Shown: positions 29,839 to 49,638 of the stretch, in pieces | How the letters are laid out: each line of letters begins with the position of its first letter | Position numbering within the stretch: position 1 is the stretch's first letter | Source: Motilibacter aurantiacus | GTDB taxonomy: Bacteria; Actinomycetota; Actinomycetes; Motilibacterales; Motilibacteraceae | Reading direction: 5' to 3' | DNA: 64,000 nucleotides | Assembly (NCBI RefSeq): GCF_011250645.1 | Contig: NZ_JAANNO010000006.1 | Span: 156,235 to 220,234, forward strand | Made by a program: the position numbers and the translations under genes | The notes under the pieces: model-generated | Seen by the model: the letters and a program-made list of their open reading frames with translations, nothing else | Databases searched by the model: none | Told to the model about the DNA's origin: nothing

Positions 29839-29930
29839 CCGTTCCTCCTCGCGTCGGTCGCGCCCGACGGCGCGCCTTCGCAGGACCGCTACCCAGCGCG
29901 GCCGGGAGGAACCCCGCCGGATCAGCAGCT

Positions 29931-29991
29931 GGCGGGTGCTGGCGGGTGCTGGCGGGTGCTGGCGGGTGCTTGCGGGTGCTTGGCGGGTGCT
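29931..29991. repeat. Tandem array with a 10-bp period, upstream of the PRC-barrel operon
   Basis: Four exact copies of GGCGGGTGCT (29931-29970), one variant TGCGGGTGCT (29971-29980), one extra T and a sixth copy (29982-29991). It lies 92-153 bp upstream of the PRC-barrel start (minus strand) and 12 bases beyond the hemE stop. The period equals one DNA turn. It is unrelated in sequence to the array at 40091-40270. Confidence 0.9.
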
Positions 29992-30003
29992 GGCCGAGTA
30001 CAG

Positions 30004-34853: not shown

Positions 34854-35762
34854 ATGAGCACCGTCTACCGGGCCTGGGGCAGGAGCGGCAGCGCCGGGTC
34901 GCGCCGGCCGGGCCTGCACCGCGCCGCCGACGACGGCGCGCGGGGGGCGGCCGGCGCCGAGCGCGTGTCCCTCACCACCCTGTTGCTGGGCCTGGACGCG
35001 ATCCCGGCCCGCCGGCCGGTCGCGGCGCACGTCATCGCGCTGACCGACGACCCGAACGTCTCCGCCGCTGGTCTGGCCGGGGTCCTCGGCGCCGACGCGC
35101 CCCTGACCGCACGGCTCATGCGGCTGGCCAACTCGGCGTACTACGGCCTCTCCGGCCGGGTCCGGACGGTTCCCTTCGCGGTCACCGCCGTCGGGTTCTC
35201 CACCGTGCGCAGCCTCGCCGTCGTCGCCGCGGCCGGGCTCGACGACGTGGAGACGCTCCCCCCGGGCTTCTGGCAGCGCTCGACCGCGACCGCCGTCACG
35301 GCCGGCGAGCTGGCCCGTCGCTTCGGCCTCCCGTCCCCGGACACCTTCTGCCTGGGGCTGCTCGCTCTCGTGGGCCAGGCGCTGCTGAACCAGCACGACC
35401 CGGAGTACGCCGGGCTGCTCGCCGCGGCGTCCGGACGGGCCGCGCTCCTGCAGGCCGAGCAGGCCCGCTACGGCATGGGGCACACGCAGGTGTCGTCGGC
35501 GGCTCTCGCCGCCTGGTCGTTCCCCGTCGAGATGCCGCAGGTCCTCCGGGCGGTCGACGACGCGGCCGCCGGCCCCGCCGCGCCGGCGGCGGTCTGCGTG
35601 CGTCTCGCGCTGGAGATCGGCGAGCGGCTCACCAACCCCGAGCACGAGGCCACCCCGCTGGAGCGGCTGTCGCGCGGGCGCATCGACGACGAGGACATCG
35701 CGCCCCTGCTGCCCCGCCTCGCCCAGGCCGCCGCCGACCTGGAGGAGGCGGTGACCGCCTGA
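34854..35762 (+). CDS. HDOD domain protein
   Basis: A 302-residue protein of the HDOD group, non-catalytic relatives of HD phosphohydrolases used in signalling. The core helices are SAAGLAGVLGADAPLTARLM, RLANSAYYGLSGRVRTVP and FAVTAVGFSTVRSLAV, typical of HDOD. The metal-binding HD pair is absent, as usual. The N-terminus is basic and Gly/Ser-rich. GGAGG precedes ATG 34854. Single gene with 184 bases upstream that show no other feature. Targets unknown. Confidence 0.85.
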   Translation: MSTVYRAWGRSGSAGSRRPGLHRAADDGARGAAGAERVSLTTLLLGLDAIPARRPVAAHVIALTDDPNVSAAGLAGVLGADAPLTARLMRLANSAYYGLSGRVRTVPFAVTAVGFSTVRSLAVVAAAGLDDVETLPPGFWQRSTATAVTAGELARRFGLPSPDTFCLGLLALVGQALLNQHDPEYAGLLAAASGRAALLQAEQARYGMGHTQVSSAALAAWSFPVEMPQVLRAVDDAAAGPAAPAAVCVRLALEIGERLTNPEHEATPLERLSRGRIDDEDIAPLLPRLAQAAADLEEAVTA

Positions 35763-35858
35763 CACCCGCTCCGGCACCGTGCTGGTGACCGCACGCGTAG
35801 TGCCGTGATCAAGGGGTAAGCACCGGCGGAAGGCGGCGCGGGGGCGGAAGGAGTTGCG

Positions 35859-36092
35859 ATGGAGCAGCAGCGACGGAAGGGCCAGCGGCTCAGCGGCGAC
35901 GAGCGCAAGGAGCTCATCGGCGTGCTCGTGGAGGAGTACCGCGCGGGCAAGAGCATCCGCGACCTGGCCGTCCAGCACTCGCTCAGCATCGGGCTCAGCC
36001 GCAACCTGCTGGTCGAGAGCGGGATCCCGCTGCGCAGCCGGGGCGGCTCCACGAGGGGCAGGCGGCCCGCGAGCGGGCAGCCGACCGGCTGA
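35859..36092 (+). CDS. Small helix-turn-helix protein
   Basis: A 77-residue, very basic protein. Residues 14-60 form a helix-turn-helix (ERKELIGVLVEEYRAGKSIR, then LAVQHSLSIGLSRNLLVESG). The C-terminal RSRGGSTRGRRPASG is an arginine/glycine tail. Small actinobacterial proteins of this type, related in sequence to the C-terminal DNA-binding part of Lsr2-like or transposase HTH segments, are common. AGGAG precedes the ATG. Its target is unknown; the stop lies seven bases before the converging methylase gene. Confidence 0.75.
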   Translation: MEQQRRKGQRLSGDERKELIGVLVEEYRAGKSIRDLAVQHSLSIGLSRNLLVESGIPLRSRGGSTRGRRPASGQPTG

Positions 36093-36098
36093 GCCGGG

Positions 36099-36974
36099 TC
36101 AATAGGTCAGCAGCAGGCGGTCGACGACCCCTTCGCCCCGCAGGTCCTGCCCCGGCATCTGGAACCGGCGGAGCATCGAGCGGCCGACGTTCACCAGCAC
36201 CTCGCGCTCGAACAGCCCCGGGGGCACGGGCACGTCGCAGAGCACGTCCCCCGACTTCTTGCTGCCGTCGATGCTCAGCGCCACGCGGGCACCGCGCCGC
36301 TTGGCCGCCGCCACCTCGGCGAAGAGCTCCTCGAGCCGGAAGGCCTGTGCGCCGTAGAGGATCGCCTGGGTGTGCGTGTAGGGCGGGTCGCAGTAGACGA
36401 CGTCGCCGGCCCCGGCGAGCGCCAGCGCCGCGCGGTAGTCCAGGTGCTCGAAGGCCGCCCCCGCCGTCCGTTCCCGCCACAGGTCGACGCGCGCGGCGAA
36501 CGCCGCCGGCGGGATCGGCCGGTGCACGCCGCAGGGGGTGGACATGTGGCCGTCGGCCTTGCGGAACCGGACGACGCCGCCGTAGCAGGAGCGCGACAGG
36601 AACAGCAGGTCGGCCGGGTTCGGTGCGGCGTTGTACGCCGCCTTGATCTCCTCGTACGCGGTCACCCGGTCCGGCGCCTCGGTGCAGCGCTGCCAGCGGT
36701 CGGCGTACCAGCCCTTGAGGGCCTCGGGGTCGGCGGCGAGCGCTTGCCAGATGCCGACGAGCGGGCCGAAGGCGTCCGAGGCCACGGCGCGCGGCGGGGC
36801 GAGCGTCGCGAGGACGGCCCCGCTGCCCAGGAAGGGCTCGAAGTACGTCCCGTCCCCCAGCGCCGGCAGCTGGGCCGCGATCTCGTGCGCGAACCGCTGC
36901 TTGTTGCCCACCCATTTGAGCAGCTGGGCGCGCAACGGGCGCACCGGAGCCCCGGGGTCCTCGGTGCCGGCCAT
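36099..36974 (-). CDS. D12-class N6-adenine DNA methyltransferase (Dam-like)
   Basis: A 291-residue methylase of the alpha/D12 class. It begins with the family sequence LLKWVGNKQRFAHEI (17-32), then motif I FEPFLGSGAV (45-54), RSCYGGVVRF, and catalytic motif IV DPPY (196-199). ATG 36974 is preferred because the extension to 37286 runs into the divergent gene. No restriction endonuclease or specificity gene is adjacent, so it may be a regulatory orphan. The recognition sequence cannot be read from the protein; GATC is usual for Dam, but other targets occur. Confidence 0.92.
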   Translation of the reverse strand: MAGTEDPGAPVRPLRAQLLKWVGNKQRFAHEIAAQLPALGDGTYFEPFLGSGAVLATLAPPRAVASDAFGPLVGIWQALAADPEALKGWYADRWQRCTEAPDRVTAYEEIKAAYNAAPNPADLLFLSRSCYGGVVRFRKADGHMSTPCGVHRPIPPAAFAARVDLWRERTAGAAFEHLDYRAALALAGAGDVVYCDPPYTHTQAILYGAQAFRLEELFAEVAAAKRRGARVALSIDGSKKSGDVLCDVPVPPGLFEREVLVNVGRSMLRRFQMPGQDLRGEGVVDRLLLTY

Positions 36975-37058
36975 CGGTGAGGAGGCTAGTTCACCCGTGC
37001 GAGGGGTCCCCTGGACGGACCGCGGCCGTTCGGGGCGGGGCGGGCTAGCCTCGTCCGC

Positions 37059-37925
37059 GTGCAGCGGCTGCCCGGTACGGAGGCGCTCCGGCAGCTGGCG
37101 CTGGCCGTGAGCGTGCTCGACGGCGTCGAGCTCGAGCCCTTCGGCGCCGGCCTGGTGCTGCGCGACGGGCGCCCGCTGGAGGTCTCGTGGGACGAGGCCG
37201 CCGCTGCGCTGGGCGCGGACGGCCTGCCCGACGTGCTCGACCTGGACGACACGTCCTCGCCCGCTCGGCGCCGGCTCCGCCGCCACCTGCAGCTGCGCCG
37301 CGCCCTCGACGAGCCGGGCGCCCCCGACCGCGTACGAGCACTGGCCCTACCGACCGGCTCGGCCGCCGCTCCCGGGCCGGGCTGGGCGCGCACCCGGGTG
37401 CTCGGCGGAGCGACGGAGGTCGGGCCCGGGCTCCTCGGGCTGCTGCCCGGGCCGGAGGTGGTGCCGCTGTCCCCCGTCGCGCTGGCGGCCTCTGGGCGCG
37501 GCGGCGACGTCGACGCGGTATGGGCCGACGCGCTCGTCCACGCCGAGGCCATGGGTGAGCTCGCCGGCGAGCGCCTGCTGCGCGAGCCGCGCGTCCTCGT
37601 CCCCGTGGGCCACGCCGACGTGGTGACGCTGCTGTCGAGCCGGTCGTTCCGCAGCGCGCTGGCCGCCGGGTGCCCCACCGGCATGCGGGCGGTCGTCGTC
37701 CCCATGCGCCGGCGCGGCTGGGTCGACCCGTCGCACCTGGACCCGGCCTTCGTCGGGTCCGTCGCGGCCTTGGTCGAGGAGGACGACCGTGCCTTCCCCC
37801 GCCCGCTGCTCGTCACCGCGGACGAGCTGGTGCTCGTGCGGGCAGGTGGGCGCCCGGAGCGCCTCGCGCTCGACGGCATCAGCCCGCGCCCCCAGCGGGT
37901 GCGGGCCGAGCGTCCGACCGACTGA
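37059..37925 (+). CDS. Conserved hypothetical protein next to dxs
   Basis: A 288-residue soluble protein without recognised domain. It starts at GTG 37059 (MQRLPGTEALRQLALAVSVL). Middle region: ALALPTGS, then GATEVGPGLLGLLPGPEVVPL. The C-terminal part has VLVPVGHADVVTLLSSR and GMRAVVVPMRRRGWVDPSHL. No catalytic motif, membrane helix or signal peptide is seen. It is divergent from the methylase (84-base gap) and converges with dxs across a short hairpin. Codon use matches the neighbours. I do not recognise the family. Confidence 0.6.
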   Translation: MQRLPGTEALRQLALAVSVLDGVELEPFGAGLVLRDGRPLEVSWDEAAAALGADGLPDVLDLDDTSSPARRRLRRHLQLRRALDEPGAPDRVRALALPTGSAAAPGPGWARTRVLGGATEVGPGLLGLLPGPEVVPLSPVALAASGRGGDVDAVWADALVHAEAMGELAGERLLREPRVLVPVGHADVVTLLSSRSFRSALAAGCPTGMRAVVVPMRRRGWVDPSHLDPAFVGSVAALVEEDDRAFPRPLLVTADELVLVRAGGRPERLALDGISPRPQRVRAERPTD

Positions 37926-37939
37926 CAGGGTGCGCGTCC

Positions 37940-37959
37940 GGCCGAGCCCTCGCTCGGCC
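37940..37959. terminator. 7-bp hairpin between converging genes
   Basis: GGCCGAG (37940-37946) pairs with CTCGGCC (37953-37959) around CCCTCG. It lies between the hypothetical gene and dxs. Confidence 0.5.
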
Positions 37960-37988
37960 TGACGCGGCGCGCGACCAGGACGGCCCGG

Positions 37989-39902
37989 TCAGCCCCGGCC
38001 GGCGGAGGCGCCGGCCTCCGGCGAGTAGGCCTCCGGCAGCCCGGCGACCGCCTCGATCACCTGGCGGCTCACCTCCTGGGCCGTGAGCCCGATCTCCGCC
38101 TGCACCTCGGCCCGCTTGGCGTGGTCGAGGAAGCGCTCCGGGACGCCGAAGTCGCGCACGGGCGTGGGGATGCCGGCATCGCGCAGCGCCTGGGCGAGCC
38201 GGGAACCGACCCCGCCGGTGCGTACGCCGTCCTCCACGCTGACGAGCAGCCGGTGGCGGCCCGCGAGCGCGACGAGCTCGGGGTCGACCGGCTTGACCCA
38301 GCGCGGGTCCACGACCGTCACCCCGACGCCCTGGGCGACGAGCCGGCCGGCGACCTCGAGGCAGAGCTCGGCCATGGCACCGACCGACACCAGCAGCACG
38401 TCCTCGTCGCCCTCGCGGCGCAGCACGTCGCCGCTGCCGACGCGCCCGGTCGCCGGGATGTCGGCCGGGATCTTGCCCTTGGGGAACCGGACCACGGTCG
38501 GTGCGTCGTCCACGTCGAGCGCCTCACGCAGCTCGGCGCGCAGGGTGGAGGCGTCCCGCGGCGCGGCCAGCCGCAGGTTGGGGACGACCTGAAGCATCGA
38601 CAGGTCCCACATGCCGTTGTGGCTCGGGCCGTCGTCGCCGGTGATGCCGGCCCGGTCGAGGACGAAGGTGACCCCGCACTTGTGCAGGGCCACGTCCATG
38701 AGCACCTGGTCGAACGCGCGGTTGAGGAAGGTCGCGTAGACGGCGACGACCGGGTGCAGGCCGGCAGTGGCCATGCCGGCCGCGCTGGTGACAGCGTGCT
38801 GCTCGGCGATGCCCACGTCGAAGACCCGGCCGGGGTAGGCCCGGGCGAAGGAGTCGAGCCCGACGGGGATGCACATCGCGGCGGTGATGCCGACGACGTC
38901 GGTGCGCTCGGCCCCGACGGCGACCATCTCGTCGGCGAACACGCTGGTCCACGACGTGCCGGACGCGGCGAGCGGCTCGCCGGTCTCCGGGTCGATGACG
39001 CCGACCGCGTGGAACAGGTCGGCCTCGAAGGCCTCGGCGGGCGCGTAGCCCCGCCCCTTCTGGGTCAGCGCGTGCACGATGACCGGCCCGCCGAAGCTGC
39101 GGGCCAGGCGCAGGGCGCGCTCGACCTCCTCCACGTCGTGCCCGTCGACCGGGCCGATGTACTTGAGGCCGAGGTCCTCGAACATCCCCTGCGGGGCGAC
39201 GATGTCCTTGAGCCCCTTCTTGACCCCGTGCAGCGTGTCGTAGATCGGCGCGCCCACGACTGGGGTGCGGCCGAGGACGTGCTTGCCCCACTCGAGGAAG
39301 CGCTCGTAGCCGCGGGTCGCCCGCAGCGTCGCCAGGTGACGGGCGAGGCCGCCGATCGTCGGGGCGTACGACCGCTCGTTGTCGTTGACCACGACGACGA
39401 CGGGGCGGTCGCTCGCGGCGATGTTGTTGAGCGCCTCCCAGGACATGCCGCCGGTCAGCGCGCCGTCGCCGATGACCGCGACCACGGTGCGGTCCGAGCG
39501 TCCCTGCAGCTCGTACGCCTTGGCCAGGCCGTCGGCGTAGGACAGCGCGGTCGAGGCGTGGCTGTTCTCCACCAGGTCGTGGGGCGACTCGTCCCGGCAG
39601 GGGTAGCCGGACAGGCCGCCCTTCTGGCGCAAGGTGGCGAAGCCGTCGCGGCGGCCGGTCAGCAGCTTGTGAACGTAGGACTGGTGGCCGGTGTCGAACA
39701 CGATCGGCTCGCGCGGGGACTCGAACACGCGGTGCAGCGCGATGGTCAGCTCGACGACGCCGAGGTTGGGGCCGAGGTGGCCGCCGGTCCGGGAGACCGA
39801 GGAGATGAGGAAGGCCCGGATCTCCGTCGCCAGCTCGTCGAGCTGGGCCCGGTCGAGCGACCGGAGGTCACGCGGCCCGCGGATCGAGTCGAGCAGACCC
39901 AC
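37989..39902 (-). CDS. dxs: 1-deoxy-D-xylulose-5-phosphate synthase
   Basis: First enzyme of the MEP isoprenoid pathway; it condenses pyruvate and glyceraldehyde 3-phosphate with thiamine diphosphate. It has 637 residues from GTG 39902 ([16 protein letters not shown]), the usual length. Motifs: [18 protein letters not shown], the TPP motif [16 protein letters not shown] (145-160), [18 protein letters not shown] with the catalytic Glu, and the transketolase C-terminal domain. The ORF continues to 40433 but through the tandem repeat array, so it is not coding there. AAGCGGGGA precedes the GTG. Possible control: the 10-bp array 188 bp upstream. Confidence 0.97.
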
Positions 39903-40090
39903 GCACGTCCCCGCTTCCCGGGCTCGTAGCCCGACTACGCCCCCGCAGGGGCCCGTGCCCCCGGTTCGACCGCCTCGTCTTCGGCAGGGTTGATGGTACG
40001 CGGCGGCACCCCGTGCGGCATGGTTTGCGCGGCGGAAGCCCCGGGTGGCGTGCCGGGCAGGCGCGGGCCGCCCCCCGCGCACCGGGCCCG

Positions 40091-40270
40091 CCCGGAGTCG
40101 CCCGGAGTCGCCCGGAGTCGCCCGGAGTCGCCCGGAGTCGCCCGGAGTCGCCCGGAGTCGCCCGGAGTCGCCCGGAGTCGCCCGGAGTCGCCCGGAGTCG
40201 CCCGGAGTCGCCCGATGCCGCCCGATGCCGCCCGATGCCGCCCGATGCCGCCCGACGCCGCCCGACGCCG
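40091..40270. repeat. Tandem array with a 10-bp period, upstream of dxs
   Basis: Twelve exact copies of CCCGGAGTCG (40091-40210), four of CCCGATGCCG (40211-40250) and two of CCCGACGCCG (40251-40270), all in register: 180 bp, 18 units. It lies 189-368 bp upstream of the dxs start and ends about 100 bp before the LacI-type operator of the sugar transporter. The 705-base gap between dxs (39902) and the binding-protein gene (40608) holds this array, a small CGGGCT/AGCCCG hairpin (39919-39933), the operator and a promoter, and no credible gene: all frames through the array are open only because the repeat has no stops. Confidence 0.97.
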
Positions 40271-40371
40271 CCCTCAGGGCGCCCGGGGGCAGCTTCGGTC
40301 GCCCGGGCCGGGCCGGGACGTGCCGCTTGCGCGGAGCCGCCCGACAGGAGCACTCTCTGTTTCGGAAGCAG

Positions 40372-40437
40372 TGACAACACGGCCGAACTGACAACGTTGT
40401 CTTGCTTGCCCGAAAGCAGAACGCTTCGTTCACGAAG
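40372..40437. promoter_or_regulatory. LacI-type operator region of the sugar transporter
   Basis: GACAACGTTGTC (40390-40401) is a perfect 12-bp palindrome with the central CG typical of LacI-family operators. It is preceded by T and by another TGACAAC half-site at 40372-40378. CTTCGT-TC-ACGAAG (40424-40437) is a second palindrome. All lie in a stretch of lower GC upstream of the binding-protein gene. The regulator is not encoded in the window. Confidence 0.65.
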
Positions 40438-40473
40438 GTGGATCACGGTTGAGTTGCGGTCGAGGGTGTTCGA

Positions 40474-40503
40474 TTGACCGTCAACTGGACCAGGCTCTTA
40501 ACT
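40474..40503 (+). promoter_or_regulatory. Probable promoter of the sugar transporter operon
   Basis: TTGACC (40474-40479) and TTAACT (40498-40503) are spaced by 18 bases and match sigma-70-like -35 and -10 elements, the second less well. The -35 lies in the small palindrome TTGACCGTCAA (40474-40484). The start codon follows about 100 bases later. Confidence 0.5.
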
Positions 40504-40607
40504 AACGCGCAACACTGAACTTCCGGTGGCCGCGCCCCGCTGGCGTGTGCTACCTCCCCTGGCGGCGGTCGCCCCCAGGTCTCGGAACATCACGGAGGCA
40601 AAGCGGC

Positions 40608-41927
40608 ATGCGACGACTCTCGCTCGTTGCCGGCATCGCTGCGCTGGGGCTCGCCCTGGCCGGATGCGGCGGAGACGGCTCGGACACCTCGGCCGGCGAC
40701 ACCGGTAGCAACTCGGGCAGCGGCACCGAGGCCTCCGGCGAGGTCGAGGTCTTCACCTGGTGGACCGAGGGCGGCGAGAAGGCGGGGCTCGACGGCCTGG
40801 TCAAGGTCTTCGGCGAGAAGTACCCGAACCTCAAGTTCGTCAACGGCGCCGTCGCCGGGGGCGCGGGCAGCAACGCCAAGGCCGTGCTCGCCTCGCGCCT
40901 GCAGACCCAGGACCCGCCGGACACGTTCCAGGGCCACGCGGGCGGTGAGCTCTCGGACTACATCAAGGCCGGCCAGCTCGAGGACCTCTCCGACCTGTAC
41001 CAGTCCGAGGGCTGGTCCGACATCTTCCCGAAGACGCTGATCGACGCGATCACGTACGACGGCAAGCTCTACTCGGTGCCCGCGAACGTCCACCGGGCGA
41101 ACGTCGTGTGGGCGAACCCGACCGTGCTGGAGAAAGCCGGCGTCGACCCGACCGCCGCGCCGGAGTCCATCGCCGACTGGATCACCGACCTGGACAAGGT
41201 GAAGGCCAGCGGCGTCGAGAACCCGCTCTCGATCGCGACCGACTGGACGCAGGTCCAGCTGCTCGAGACGGTCCTGATCGCCGACCTCAAGGCCGAGGGC
41301 TACGCCGGCCTGTGGACCGGCGACACCAAGTGGGACTCCCCCGAGGTCACCGCGGCACTGAACGACTACGCCAAGCTCATGAGCTACACCAACAGCAACC
41401 GGTCCAGCCTCGACTGGCCGGACGCGGCGAACATGGTCCGCGACGGCAAGGCCGGCTACAACGTCATGGGTGACTGGGTCGCCGCCAACTGGCAGGGCGA
41501 GAAGCTCGAGGAGGGCAAGGACTACGTCTACATGCCCGTCCCCGGCTCGCAGGGCATCTTCGACTTCCTCTCCGACTCGTTCACGCTGCCGGTCGGCGCC
41601 AAGAACCCCGAGGGCGCTAAGGACTGGCTGCGCGTCGTCGGCAGCGCCGAGGGCCAGCAGTCCTTCAACACGGTCAAGGGCTCGATCCCGGCGCGCACGG
41701 ACGCGGACGCCGCGGACTACCCGGCCTACCAGCAGTCGGCCATCAAGGACTTCAGCTCCGACACGATCGTCCCGTCGCTCGCCCACGGCGCCGCGGCCTC
41801 GATCGCGTGGCTGAACGACATCACCTCGGCCGTCGGCAAGTTCGGCACGTCGAGCTTCGACTCCGGTGCGGTCTCCGAGCTGCAGAGCGGCCTCGTGCAG
41901 GCAGCGTCGAACAACCTGCAGAGCTGA
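40608..41927 (+). CDS. Sugar ABC transporter substrate-binding lipoprotein
   Basis: A 439-residue lipoprotein that captures sugar outside the membrane. Signal peptide with lipobox LAGC (Cys20), followed by a Gly/Ser/Asp linker. The mature domain starts VEVFTWWTEGGEKAGLDGLV, which resembles glucose/mannose-binding proteins of the CUT1 class; later WDSPEVTAALNDYAKLMSY and GIFDFLSDSFTLPVGAKNP fit. GGAGG lies nine bases before ATG 40608. It is followed by a hairpin and two permease genes. No ATPase gene is present, so a shared ATPase of the MsiK type, encoded elsewhere, would drive it. Glucose or another hexose is the likely substrate, by homology only. Confidence 0.9.
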   Translation: MRRLSLVAGIAALGLALAGCGGDGSDTSAGDTGSNSGSGTEASGEVEVFTWWTEGGEKAGLDGLVKVFGEKYPNLKFVNGAVAGGAGSNAKAVLASRLQTQDPPDTFQGHAGGELSDYIKAGQLEDLSDLYQSEGWSDIFPKTLIDAITYDGKLYSVPANVHRANVVWANPTVLEKAGVDPTAAPESIADWITDLDKVKASGVENPLSIATDWTQVQLLETVLIADLKAEGYAGLWTGDTKWDSPEVTAALNDYAKLMSYTNSNRSSLDWPDAANMVRDGKAGYNVMGDWVAANWQGEKLEEGKDYVYMPVPGSQGIFDFLSDSFTLPVGAKNPEGAKDWLRVVGSAEGQQSFNTVKGSIPARTDADAADYPAYQQSAIKDFSSDTIVPSLAHGAAASIAWLNDITSAVGKFGTSSFDSGAVSELQSGLVQAASNNLQS

Positions 41928-41961
41928 TCGTCCCCCGGCAGCTCCGACCGGACCACGCCAG

Positions 41962-41990
41962 GGCGGGGTCAGCCAACGGCTGGCCCCGCC
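41962..41990 (+). terminator. Intercistronic hairpin after the binding-protein gene
   Basis: GGCGGGGTCAGCC (41962-41974) pairs with 41978-41990 with one G-U pair and the loop AAC. It lies between the binding protein and the permeases and may attenuate transcription so that the binding protein is made in excess. Confidence 0.7.
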
Positions 41991-42043
41991 TCGGCGCGGA
42001 AGGGTGACGGGCGGCCGGGCATCCCGCCTCTTGGAGTCACCTC

Positions 42044-42934
42044 GTGCGTCACACCGGAATTCGAAGATGGGGGCCTGGCCTTCTGGTCATGACCCCCTCG
42101 ATCGTCGTCATCGCCGTCTTCGTGTACGGGCTGATCGGCTGGACGGTCAACACGTCCCTGACCGACCGGACGACCGCGCTGCCGGCCGATGGCTACGTCG
42201 GGCTGGAGAACTTCACCAAGCTCTTCCAGGACGACCGCTTCATCCATTCGCTGAAGAACCTCGGCGTGCTGACCGTCGTCTTCATCGTCGGCACCATGGT
42301 TCTCGGGTTCCTGTGGGCCCTCCTGCTCGAGCGTGGGTTCAAGGGTGAGGGCGTCTTCCGCTCGATCTACCTGTTCCCGATGGCCGTCTCGTTCATCGCC
42401 TCGGGTGTCGTGTGGCGCTGGCTGCTCAACAGCGCGGAGGGCGACGACGCCGGTGGCCTGAACAAGCTCTTCGACAGCCTGCACCTCGGATTCCTGCAGA
42501 ACCCGTGGTGGAACGACCCGGACTGGGGCATGGCCGCCATGGCCCTCCCGGCGATCTGGCAGCTGTCGGGGTACGTCATGGCGCTCTTCCTGGCCGGGTT
42601 CCGCGGCATCCCGGCCGAGCTGCGCGAGGCGGCGCGGGTCGACGGGGCGTCGGAGTTCCAGCTCTACCGCCACGTGATCTTCCCGCAGCTGTCCCCCGTG
42701 GCGCTGTCCGCACTCATCATCGTCGGCCACATGTCGATGAAGATGTTCGACCTGATCATGGCGGTCTCGGGCGCCCAGTACCTCACCGAGGTCCCGGCGG
42801 TCTACCTGTGGACGACGCTGCTGGGCTCGAACTACGCCAAGGCCTGCGCCATCGCCGTCGTGCTGCTGCTGGTCGTCGCCGTCGTCGTCGTGCCGTACCT
42901 GGTGTCCAACGCGCGGGCGGAGAAGCGCCGATGA
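42044..42934 (+). CDS. Sugar ABC transporter permease (first subunit)
   Basis: A 296-residue CUT1-type permease (MalF/UgpA-like) with six membrane helices. The EAA loop for the ATPase is EAARVDGASEFQLYRHVIFPQL. The start is GTG 42044 (VRHTGIRRWGPGLL); the Shine-Dalgarno is weak. Its stop overlaps the next permease (ATGA), so both are co-translated. It functions with the binding protein above. Confidence 0.92.
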   Translation: MRHTGIRRWGPGLLVMTPSIVVIAVFVYGLIGWTVNTSLTDRTTALPADGYVGLENFTKLFQDDRFIHSLKNLGVLTVVFIVGTMVLGFLWALLLERGFKGEGVFRSIYLFPMAVSFIASGVVWRWLLNSAEGDDAGGLNKLFDSLHLGFLQNPWWNDPDWGMAAMALPAIWQLSGYVMALFLAGFRGIPAELREAARVDGASEFQLYRHVIFPQLSPVALSALIIVGHMSMKMFDLIMAVSGAQYLTEVPAVYLWTTLLGSNYAKACAIAVVLLLVVAVVVVPYLVSNARAEKRR

Positions 42935-43806
42935 GCAGTGCAGCCGTCGCAGCCGGCTCCGCCCGGCCGCGCAAGAAGAAGCCCGGCCCGCGCTCCACGA
43001 CCGCGCGCACGGCGCGCTTCGTGCTCCTCGTCCTGTTCCTGCTGCTCGTCCTGCTCCCGGCCTACGTCCTCTTCGTGACGAGCTTCAAGCCGTCGGCGGA
43101 GACGTCGGCCGACCGGGCGTGGCTGTTGCCCCAGAACTGGACCACCGAGGGCTGGAGGACCGCGTGGGACAGCCTGAGCCCGTCGCTCTGGCGCACGTTC
43201 CAGCTGGCCGTCCCGGCCGCGCTCATCTCCGCCTTCATCGGGTCGGTCAACGGGTTCGTCCTCTCCCGGTGGCGCTTCCCCGGGGCGGACGTCCTCTTCA
43301 CGCTGTTCCTGTTCGGCATGTTCATCCCGTACCAGGCCGTCGTCATCCCGCTGCGGCAGCTGACGGTCTGGATCGGGCTGCCGAACGGCATCCCGACGCT
43401 GATCTTGGTGCACATCATCTACGGCATCCCGATCTGCACGCTGATCTTCCGCAACTACTACGCCTCGGTGCCGCACGAGCTGGTCGAGGCGGCCCAGGTC
43501 GACGGCGCGGGCATGATCCGAACGTACGCCTCGATCATCCTGCCGCTGTCGGGCCCCGGCTTCGTGGTCACGATCATCTGGCAGTTCACGTCGGCCTGGA
43601 ACGACTACCTGTTCGCGATCTTCCTCTCGAACACCAGGAACGGGCCGATCACCATCGCGCTGAACGCGTTGGCCGGCGGGCAGTTGACGAACTACTCGGC
43701 GTCCATGGCCGGTGCCATGATCGCCTCGATCCCGACGCTCGTCGTCTACGTCGTCCTCGGCCGCTACTTCGTCGGCGGCCTCATGGCCGGGTCGGTGAAG
43801 AGCTGA
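42931..43806 (+). CDS. Sugar ABC transporter permease (second subunit)
   Basis: A 291-residue CUT1-type permease (MalG/UgpE-like) with six membrane helices. Features: VLFVTSFKPSAE after the first helix, FNGFVLSRWRFPG-like GSVNGFVLSRWRFPGADVLF, the EAA loop EAAQVDGAGMIRTYASIILPL, and the terminal YFVGGLMAGSVKS. The basic N-terminus (RPRKKKPGPRS) is cytoplasmic. ATG 42931 overlaps the upstream stop. A hairpin 20 bases downstream ends the operon. No ATPase gene follows. Confidence 0.92.
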   Translation: MSSAAVAAGSARPRKKKPGPRSTTARTARFVLLVLFLLLVLLPAYVLFVTSFKPSAETSADRAWLLPQNWTTEGWRTAWDSLSPSLWRTFQLAVPAALISAFIGSVNGFVLSRWRFPGADVLFTLFLFGMFIPYQAVVIPLRQLTVWIGLPNGIPTLILVHIIYGIPICTLIFRNYYASVPHELVEAAQVDGAGMIRTYASIILPLSGPGFVVTIIWQFTSAWNDYLFAIFLSNTRNGPITIALNALAGGQLTNYSASMAGAMIASIPTLVVYVVLGRYFVGGLMAGSVKS

Positions 43807-43825
43807 CGCCCGTTGCCGTACTCCG

Positions 43826-43857
43826 ACGGCGGGCTGCCCTCACGGGTGGCCCGCCGT
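43826..43857. terminator. Hairpin at the end of the sugar transporter operon
   Basis: ACGGCGGGC (43826-43834) pairs with GCCCGCCGT (43849-43857), with an inner CCC/GGG pairing in the loop. It lies 20 bases beyond the stop. Confidence 0.75.
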
Positions 43858-43955
43858 TCGCGTGAAGCGGGCCGCGGGCTGGGGGAGCCGGCGTGGGACG
43901 CCAGGGGCGGCGGCACCGGCCGGTCACGTCGCACCGGCGCCGGCCGCACCGACGC

Positions 43956-44339
43956 CTACAGCCGCTGGGTGAAGCGCTTGCCGCGCAGCGCTTCCTCGAC
44001 GAGCGCCACTGCGCGCGCGGCCGCGACGAGCCGCGCCCCCTCGCGCTCGTACGCCACGAGCGCCGCCTCCACGGCCTGCGGCGGGACGGCGCCGCGCAGG
44101 TCGTCGCGGGCCGTCGAGAGCCCGCGGCGCGACGCCTCGATGCCCGCGGCCACCGCGTACGAGGCGAACCGTGCGAGCACGACGGGGTGCCGGCGCAGCA
44201 CCTCGTGCAGCCGGTAGTCCGGCGGGCAGAGGTCGAAGAGCCAGGCGACGGCGGTCTTCTCCCAGTCCGGTGCCCCGGGGGGCCGCACCTCCACCGGCCA
44301 TCCGGGAGGCGCGAAGCCCTCCCGTCCGCCTGCCGCCAT
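43956..44339 (-). CDS. Conserved actinobacterial hypothetical protein
   Basis: A 127-residue, mostly helical protein. The strongest segment is WLFDLCPPDYRLHEVLRRHP, followed by VVLARFASYAVAAGIEASRRG and a C-terminal VALVEEALRGKRFTQRL. I believe similar proteins occur widely in actinobacteria next to various genes, but I do not know a function. No membrane helix or signal. The start ATG 44339 is 23 bases from the annotated start of the divergent GT9 gene. Confidence 0.65.
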   Translation of the reverse strand: MAAGGREGFAPPGWPVEVRPPGAPDWEKTAVAWLFDLCPPDYRLHEVLRRHPVVLARFASYAVAAGIEASRRGLSTARDDLRGAVPPQAVEAALVAYEREGARLVAAARAVALVEEALRGKRFTQRL

Positions 44340-44362
44340 GCCTGCCACCGTAACCTCGCCCG

Positions 44363-45526
44363 GTGACAGAGCACGTCTTCGCACAACGCCTGAACAACGC
44401 GCCCGGGGCGACGGTGACGCCTCGGCTCCCCCCGCGGGCCGGGCTCGGGCCACTGGTGCCTGACGTGCAGCGGCTCGCGGTGCTGCGCTCGGGTGGCCTG
44501 GGCGACCTCGTGGGCGCCGAGCCGGCCGTCGCCGCGCTGCGGGCGGCGTACCCGGACGCGGAGATCACCCTGCTCGGCGCGGAGCAGATGCGCCCGCTGG
44601 TCGAGGGGCGGCCCGGGCCGTGGGACCGGTTCGAGGCGGTGCCGCTGGTGCCGGGCGTACGCGGGGGCGCTGGCCCGGACGCCTCCCCGGAGGAGGTGGA
44701 GCGGTGGGCGGCAGCCCGCCGGGAGGACGCCTTCGACCTCGCGGTGCAGCTGCACGGCGGTGGCGGCAACGCGAACCCGCTGCTGCGCCGCGTCGGCGCG
44801 CGGGTCACCGCCGGGCCTGCCGCCCCGGACGCGCCGAAGCTCGACGTGACGGTCCCGTGGACCCCGTTCCAGCCGGACGCCCTGCGCTGGCTGGAGGTCG
44901 CGGCCGCGCTCGGCGCTCCCCCGCTCCGGCTCACCCCGCGGCTCAGCGTCACCGAGGAGGACCGCGCCGCCGCCGCGTCTGCGCTGGCGGGCCTGCCCGC
45001 GGGCCGGCCGCTGGCCGCCCTGCACCTGGGGGCCAGCGACCCGCGCCGCTGCTGGCCGGCGGAGAAGTTCGCCGCGGTGGCGGACGCGCTGGCCGACGCC
45101 GGCGCGACGGTGCTGGTCGTCGGCTCCGCGGCGGACGCGGGTCGCGCCGACCGGCTGCTCGCCGCGGCCAGCCACTCCGGGTCGGTGGTCCCGCTGGTGG
45201 GGCGGGTCGGCCTCGACGGGCTGCTCGGGGCGCTCGAGCGCTGCGCCCTGCTGGTCGGCAACGACTCCGGCCCGCGCCATCTGGCTGCGGCGATCGGGAC
45301 CCCGACCGTCGGGGTGTTCACGAGCGCCAACCTCGTCGACGTGGCTCCGCTGGCGCGGGCCTGGCACCGGGTGGCGGTGTCGTGGACGCCGCGCTGCGCG
45401 CGGTGCGGGCGGGGCTACCTGCAGGGCGACTGCGGCCACGGCGAGACGGCGCTCGACGACGTCCGGGCCGAGGAGGTCGTCGGGCTGGCACTGGAGCTGT
45501 GGGAGCAGTCGCTCGCCACCCCCTGA
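44363..45526 (+). CDS. Glycosyltransferase family 9 (heptosyltransferase-like)
   Basis: Up to 387 residues. GT-B fold of family 9: LAVLRSGGLGDLVGAEPAV near the start binds the phosphate donor; the C-terminal half has LAALHLGASDPRRCWPAEKF and LVGNDSGPRHLAAAIGTPTVG, the family motif. A CARCGRGYLQGDCGHG segment near the end contains three cysteines. Actinobacteria lack LPS, so the acceptor is probably another wall or exopolysaccharide. The start is uncertain: GTG 44456 (VPDVQRLAVLR) fits the family better and would leave 116 bases for divergent promoters, whereas GTG 44363 leaves 23. Confidence 0.85.
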   Translation: MTEHVFAQRLNNAPGATVTPRLPPRAGLGPLVPDVQRLAVLRSGGLGDLVGAEPAVAALRAAYPDAEITLLGAEQMRPLVEGRPGPWDRFEAVPLVPGVRGGAGPDASPEEVERWAAARREDAFDLAVQLHGGGGNANPLLRRVGARVTAGPAAPDAPKLDVTVPWTPFQPDALRWLEVAAALGAPPLRLTPRLSVTEEDRAAAASALAGLPAGRPLAALHLGASDPRRCWPAEKFAAVADALADAGATVLVVGSAADAGRADRLLAAASHSGSVVPLVGRVGLDGLLGALERCALLVGNDSGPRHLAAAIGTPTVGVFTSANLVDVAPLARAWHRVAVSWTPRCARCGRGYLQGDCGHGETALDDVRAEEVVGLALELWEQSLATP

Positions 45527-45543
45527 GACCCCTGCCGCACGCG

Positions 45544-45587
45544 AGAAGGCGCCCTTGTGACGGCCTACCGTCAGAAGGGCGCCTTCT
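45544..45587. terminator. Extended hairpin between GT9 and acnA
   Basis: AGAAGGCGCCCTT (45544-45556) pairs with AAGGGCGCCTTCT (45575-45587), and inside TGACGG pairs with CCGTCA. It lies between the two converging genes and is probably bidirectional. Confidence 0.9.
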
Positions 45588-45623
45588 GCCCATGCGGGCA
45601 CGCGGCGGCCGGAGCCGCGGGCG

Positions 45624-48464
<2,841 letters not shown>

Positions 48465-48630: not shown

Positions 48631-49638
48631 GTGTCCGTCACTGCCGTCGTCCTTCCGCCCCCCTCGACCGCCACCACCTCCCGGCCCCCACTGCTGATCG
48701 TGGGTCACGGGACGCGCGACGCCGCCGGGGTCGAGCAGTTCACGGGCTTCACCCGCCGGGTCGCCGCCCTCATGGCCGGACGCGGCGTCGCGGTCGGTGG
48801 CGGGCTGATCGAGCTCGCGCCTCCCCCGCTGATGGACGCCGTGGCCGGCCTGGTCGGGGCCGGCCACCGCCATCTCGTCGCCGTGCCGCTGATGCTCGTC
48901 GCCGCGGGCCACGCCAAGGGCGACATCCCCGCGGCGCTCGACCGGGAGCGGGAGCGCCACCCCGCGATGACGTACGCGTACGGCCGCCCGCTCGCCGCCG
49001 ACCCGCGCATCCTCGACGCGCTGGACGAGCGGCTGTCGGCGGTGCTCGACGACGCCGAGCGGGCCGGGACGCACGTCGTCCTCGTCGGGCGTGGGTCGAC
49101 CGACCCGGACGCCAACGCCGAGGTCTTCCGGGCCGGCCGGCTCTTCGAGGAGGGGCGCGGCCTGGCGGGCGTCGAGTCCTCGTTCATCAGCCTGGCCAGG
49201 CCCGGCGTCCCGGCCGCGCTCGAGCGCTGCCGCATGCTCGGCGCCGCGCGGGTCGTGGTGCTGCCGTACTTCATGTTCGCCGGCGTGCTGCCCGACCGGA
49301 TCGTCGCGCAGGCGCAGGCCTGGGCGGCCGAGCACCCGGAGGTCGACGTCCGCTGCGCGGGCCTGATCGGGGACTGCGACCAGCTCGCCGAGGTGGTGAT
49401 CTCCCGGTACGAGGAGGCGGTCGCCGGCGGCATCAGGAACAACTGCGACACCTGCATGTACCGCATCGCGATGCCGGGGCGCGAGGCCAAGGTCGGCCTC
49501 CCGCAGGCCCCGCACGATCACCCGGACGACCCGGCGCACCCGCACGGCCATTCCCACGACCACGGGCACCCGCACGGCCATTCCCACGACCACGGGCACC
49601 CCCACCCGCACGGGCATCCCCACGCGCACGCCCACTGA
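48631..49638 (+). CDS. cbiX: CbiX-type sirohydrochlorin chelatase with histidine-rich tail
   Basis: Inserts cobalt (cobalamin) or iron (siroheme) into sirohydrochlorin. It has 335 residues: a class II chelatase repeated twice (HGTRDAAGVEQF ... VPLMLVAAGHAKGDIP, then VLVGRGSTDPDAN ... VVLPYFMFAGVLPDRI). A CDTCMYR motif with two cysteines follows, and the last 40 residues are histidine-rich (HGHSHDHGHPHGH in part), a metal-storage tail common in cobaltochelatases. GTG 48631 lies 37 bases after the palindrome. cobK and cobF at the end of the window suggest cobalamin; cysG at the start suggests siroheme. The metal is undecided. Confidence 0.92.
   Translation: MSVTAVVLPPPSTATTSRPPLLIVGHGTRDAAGVEQFTGFTRRVAALMAGRGVAVGGGLIELAPPPLMDAVAGLVGAGHRHLVAVPLMLVAAGHAKGDIPAALDRERERHPAMTYAYGRPLAADPRILDALDERLSAVLDDAERAGTHVVLVGRGSTDPDANAEVFRAGRLFEEGRGLAGVESSFISLARPGVPAALERCRMLGAARVVVLPYFMFAGVLPDRIVAQAQAWAAEHPEVDVRCAGLIGDCDQLAEVVISRYEEAVAGGIRNNCDTCMYRIAMPGREAKVGLPQAPHDHPDDPAHPHGHSHDHGHPHGHSHDHGHPHPHGHPHAHAH
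49541..49600 (+). repeat. Two exact 30-bp direct repeats in the CbiX histidine tail
   Basis: The unit 49541-49570 recurs at 49571-49600 without change and encodes ten residues of His/Gly/Asp/Pro. Perfect identity suggests a recent slip duplication that lengthened the metal-binding tail. Confidence 0.85.

Follow-up and report, generated by a model that had tools for sequence, protein, structure and literature searches.

The spacer between dxs and a divergent ABC transporter gene in Motilibacter aurantiacus holds a tandem decamer array, and the locus raises the question of whether this array serves the control of either gene or is a repeat that the spacer tolerates. In the window (the whole 64,000 nucleotide stretch analysed, GC content 74%), the array was found at 40090–40269 as 18 exact head-to-tail units in perfect register and with no indel. 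It comprises three blocks, to which no strand was assigned, namely 12 perfect copies of GCCCGGAGTC (block A, 40090–40209), four of GCCCGATGCC (block B, 40210–40249) and two of GCCCGACGCC (block C, 40250–40269), and a partial unit (GCCC, 40270–40273) carries the decamer pattern on past block C. An initial annotation had described 18 units with an exact 10 bp period, made up of 12, four and two copies of three decamers in strict register. The array and its blocks were as counted there, but the coordinates given, 40091–40270, were one base too far to the right. TRF and a pattern scan agreed on the array, and a two-unit pattern gave 17 in-register matches within it but matched none of 100 dinucleotide shuffles. 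When 1.66 Mb of the 4.59 Mb genome was sampled, it had the top score of all tandem arrays with periods of 4–25 bp (159 versus 87 for the runner-up), and it was the longest and most perfect in this sampled 36%. No decayed unit was present in any block, which fits a recent origin but also constraint on the unit. Imperfect inverted repeats (18–26 nt, 73–79% complementary) were seen at and adjoining the edges of the array.

The host assembly is a draft of 62 contigs, presumably built from short reads. In a 1.26 Mb sample of the same genome, seven of nine N gaps adjoined tandem repeats, one of them an 11 bp array (flanks judged by eye, some with only two copies visible), and the copy number of the array is therefore provisional. 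An assembly artefact, affecting either the existence of the array or its copy number, is nevertheless highly improbable, as there is no N at the array, both flanks are non-repeat sequence, the three variant blocks are ordered and the two detection methods were concordant. The array itself appears secure, but its length is uncertain.

The dxs gene (37989–39902, minus strand, GTG start at 39902) encodes 1-deoxy-D-xylulose-5-phosphate synthase and includes the DXP_synthase_N domain (Pfam PF13292, E = 7.7e-112). The gene on the other side (40608–41927, plus strand, ATG start at 40608) encodes an extracellular solute-binding protein of an ABC transporter (SBP_bac_1, Pfam PF01547, E = 1.6e-27) and is followed downstream by two BPD_transp_1 permeases. 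The divergent spacer is 705 bp long and the array lies 188 bp from the start codon of dxs, in agreement with its earlier placement between dxs and a sugar transporter, though sugar is only the probable substrate.

The closest relative examined and sole congener, Motilibacter deserti (genome G001, presumed to be this species), has a dxs gene 95% identical to that of the host and the same dxs and ABC transporter arrangement, but its spacer is 568 bp and includes no array. When the two spacers were aligned, identity was high next to each gene and almost nil mid-spacer. From the dxs end, identity was 49/50 in the start of the coding sequence, then 26/28, 40/55 and 16/25, followed by 31/79 before the array and 22/180 across it, with 138 gaps. 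Beyond the array it was 51/111 and rose to 17/20 over the GACAACGTTGTC palindrome; the stretches after the palindrome gave 35/60, 60/70 and 66/77, and the solute-binding protein gene 51/53. In 40 unrelated 190 bp pairs from the two genomes, 51% of aligned columns were identical, and because identity falls below this value the mid-spacer is effectively unalignable. The whole array lies inside this unconserved middle (40011–40380, no strand), with the 31/79 and 51/111 stretches on its two sides. With one congener for comparison, the difference fits loss in M. deserti as well as gain in the host.

Conserved sequences were found on both sides of this region. The 12 bases GATGGTACGCGG (39992–40003, no strand), most of which fall in the 16/25 stretch, match M. 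deserti exactly, and when read by eye on the minus strand they hold TACCAT, a possible candidate for the −10 of dxs. Upstream of the transporter, a palindrome (GACAACGTTGTC / TGACAACGTTGTC, 40390–40401, no strand) is kept in M. deserti, and we take it to be a putative operator resembling those of the LacI family. The half-site TGACAACA precedes the TGACAACGTTGTC palindrome within 40372–40401. The block before the transporter gene (40461–40607, plus strand), which includes the 60/70 and 66/77 stretches, is presumed to be the promoter and leader of the transporter. A sigma-70 promoter scan of 39850–40650 gave no match, and the same region contained one terminator-like site, on the minus strand at 40437–40424 (0.4 expected). 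The array is outside the conserved blocks, approximately 92 bp from the putative −10 and 120 bp from the putative operator, both as located by eye.

The position upstream of both genes and a period near one helical turn would suit a regulatory array, in which phased binding sites or intrinsic curvature tune the dxs promoter, the transporter promoter or both. The initial annotation had supposed that any bound protein or curvature would be phased along one face of the DNA. Modelled curvature was indeed high. In a wedge model using Bolshoy values, in which an A-tract included as positive control showed the expected strong bend, none of 1500 genomic windows was as bent as the 60 and 120 bp pieces of the array, and the full array of 180 bp exceeded 99.3% of genomic windows. 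However, 13.5% of 800 random genomic decamers bent at least as much as the array when repeated in tandem. Assuming 10.5 bp per turn, the register of a 10 bp unit drifts by approximately −17 degrees with each copy, which amounts to −291 degrees after 17 steps, and the decamers therefore remain on one helical face over only a few copies. By eye, the only dyad symmetry in the block A unit is CCGG, and the conserved blocks are located elsewhere in the spacer. The array is also absent upstream of the M. deserti dxs orthologue, and of 396 genomes searched the host alone had the exact unit family. The supposed phasing is thus not borne out, and a regulatory array of this kind is improbable.

On the strand with the dxs sense sequence, where the commonest unit is GACTCCGGGC, the array reads (G3N7)18 and contains four consecutive canonical G-quadruplex (G4) motifs. 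A G4 element could act on transcription or replication, as a block or an insulator, or could promote the expansion itself. The array packs four tandem motifs of the G3N7 type into 180 nt, compared with an average of 0.24 per kb across the 1.26 Mb sample, a G4Hunter magnitude as high was seen in only 0.65% of 180 nt windows, and G-rich tandem repeats of other bacteria are reported to form G4s in vitro (PMC4692102). Yet 41.5% of 20,000 random genomic decamers produced a canonical G4 motif once placed in tandem. The mean G4Hunter score was merely 0.61, the loops contain C and are at the 7 nt limit, and the best RNA fold was the same with quadruplexes allowed. The known G4 repeats are moreover reported to be under-represented between divergent ORFs (PMC4692102). 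As strong bending and G4 motifs are both common in random tandem decamers, they need only a repeated GC-rich decamer, and we regard a G4 element as very unlikely here. A structured RNA was also considered and rejected: there was no Rfam match at E ≤ 1 in 35000–46000, the dxs-strand RNA folded worse than its shuffles (z = +5.0) and the other strand was ordinary (z = −0.9).

No stop interrupts any of the six frames across the array, and the dxs frame runs for 817 codons between stops, as might be expected if the array were coding, either for additional N-terminal residues of Dxs or for some other repeat protein. However, a 10 bp unit that is stop-free in its three registers leaves every frame open, the open dxs frame in M. 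deserti is only 661 codons, and the identity lost stepwise upstream of the GTG at 39902 (26/28, 40/55, 16/25) is down to 31/79 beside the array. A coding role is scarcely credible. As the open dxs frame (37989–40433, 814 aa) crosses the array, automatic annotation may over-extend Dxs, and a stop-free decamer array is a warning in that it can lure gene callers into extending dxs upstream. Elsewhere in the window, overlapping 30, 18 and 12 bp repeats were seen at 49509–49630, where one frame read by eye as Pro/His/Asp/Gly, possibly a segment of a His-rich metal-binding protein.

The distribution of the unit was examined in other genomes. A degenerate pattern of three units was matched exactly in one of 396 genomes of the phylum, that of the host, where all 16 matches fell inside this array, and a 241 bp query containing the array had a single match in its own genome. 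When three mismatches were allowed in a search of five genomes of the family, matches outside the array were found at four places in the host (a fifth overlapped the array edge), one in M. deserti, none in G002 or G003 and two in G004, compared with one, one, none, none and one, respectively, for reversed-pattern controls. Judged by eye, these places included short decamer arrays of approximately three copies each at C5, C7 and C18 in the host and of approximately three copies in M. deserti. In G004, a genome of the same family, a decamer like ACCCGGGGCC, unlike the unit reported here, was present in approximately six copies (C1:888795; L241, around 995–1055). Using TRF with a looser cut-off, two weak period-10 arrays were found in M. 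deserti and two in the Streptomyces dxs loci. The upstream DNA of 80 dxs loci (named genomes, mostly Streptomyces, with M. deserti included once) was free of period-10 arrays at a TRF score of at least 50, over 800 bp or, in some loci, the shorter length available.

Within the window, a second decamer array, apparently intergenic, was found at 29928–29994 (6.6 copies of GCTGGCGGGT) and is absent from the corresponding place in M. deserti. The initial annotation had proposed a search for other 10 bp arrays in the genome, and by all routes six more places were found, with other, partly similar GC-rich units. GC-rich decamer arrays are thus found repeatedly in the family, though the places and the units differ. 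When the units were compared after rotation, no clear unit common to the decamer arrays of the family was found. Six other period-10 arrays detected without the pattern (four in the host, two in M. deserti) matched the unit at 6, 7, 8, 8, 7 and 9 of 10 positions. The two Streptomyces arrays scored 6 and 7, and three arrays found with the pattern (9, 7 and 7) were excluded. Since 14.4% of random genomic decamers reach at least 8, three of six arrays at this level is a weak excess.

Two unguided scans of the own-genome sample, with TRF applied to the earlier part of the sample, revealed nine arrays with non-triplet periods. Eight, namely the reported array and those at C6 18496, C6 94120, C6 186162, C2 15016, C1 229664, C3 210299 and C5 209153, were compared with M. 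deserti, leaving out the period-11 array at C4 161279. For seven of the eight, including the reported one, there was no array at the corresponding M. deserti place, and such arrays therefore come and go between species. The exception was C3 210299, where a degenerate 20 bp repeat of partly similar sequence was found at the corresponding place. In the host genome, six of eight non-triplet arrays had a period of 10 or 11, or four of six when the two in the window, which was picked for this finding, are set aside. In comparison DNA (G001–G004 and 79 dxs loci, 1.88 Mb), five of 20 non-triplet arrays had a period of 10, 11, 20 or 22, and none had a period of 10. The apparent excess of periods 10–11 in the host genome is mild.

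A further reading is that decamer and undecamer arrays are selectively retained in regulatory spacers of the host as elastic, phase-preserving spacers, perhaps also as G4-prone insulators. As the unit is approximately one helical turn, slippage would shift the distance between divergent promoters with little rotation and, if this were so, the length of repeat units would be tied to a helical constraint in promoters. We consider this quite improbable. Two other arrays were seen in the course of the searches. An 11 bp array of GCGGCAGGAAC (9.5 copies, L014:14120–14224) ends in an assembly N gap, and none was found at the corresponding M. deserti place. In G004, an 8 bp AGCCTGTG array of approximately 57 copies (L228:4499–4952, equivalent to G004:C4:44499–44952) is 454 bp long, longer than the reported array.

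Taken together, the array is very likely an intergenic VNTR of recent origin that expanded by slippage, is neutral or almost neutral and is tolerated between conserved control blocks. The starting point would have been a lone decamer resembling GCCCGNNGNC, doubled by chance within a weakly constrained, GC-rich spacer. Growth would then have come from either unequal recombination or slipped-strand mispairing, with a few point mutations arising between rounds. Rounds of expansion separated by point mutations would lead to the homogeneous blocks of 12, four and two copies. These blocks, and the M. deserti spacer with no array at the same place, agree with the stepwise expansion that the initial annotation had read from the block-wise variants. 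Its location, with a conserved control block of one of the divergent genes on either side, would allow the array to be tolerated, and lengthening of the spacer is likely to be its only effect. We infer slippage as the mechanism and near-neutrality as the outcome; no observation requires the array to have a function. Its main value is as a clear instance of a tandem repeat that expanded recently, in an actinobacterial window with 74% GC, and as a candidate marker for strain typing.

No paper on this array was found amongst the literature matches listed, which for some queries were part of all matching papers. The GGGNATC heptamer repeats of Xanthomonas and Nostoc, which form G4s (PMC4692102), are likewise intergenic and tandem with regular G3 tracts. 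However, the unit of this array is neither GGGNATC nor GGGGA(C/T)T, the loops are 7 nt, the array has no second genomic copy and is not dispersed over the genome, and its setting is between divergent genes. Promoter-proximal rheostat or phase-variation repeats such as the T-tract of Helicobacter pylori sabA (PMC4081817) are similar in that this array is upstream of putative promoters and its length could alter spacing. Unlike such repeats, it lies at a distance from the putative core promoters of both genes and overlaps none of the conserved blocks, a change of one unit is approximately one turn and would nearly keep helical phase, and there is no sign of switching. The closest likeness is to bacterial intergenic VNTR or short tandem repeat loci (PMC3899988), for which strand slippage and recombination are given as the two models of expansion, and short tandem repeats (units of 1–9 bp were covered) are reported to be enriched at indel sites across bacterial species (PMC12699852). 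The array differs from the VNTR loci in its GC-rich 10 bp unit and in being known here from one genome. It shares with them perfect head-to-tail units repeated beyond chance, stepwise block variants, an intergenic position and a lineage-specific locus gained or lost between relatives, as in minisatellite-like repeats, and repeats of this sort are termed intergenic VNTRs.
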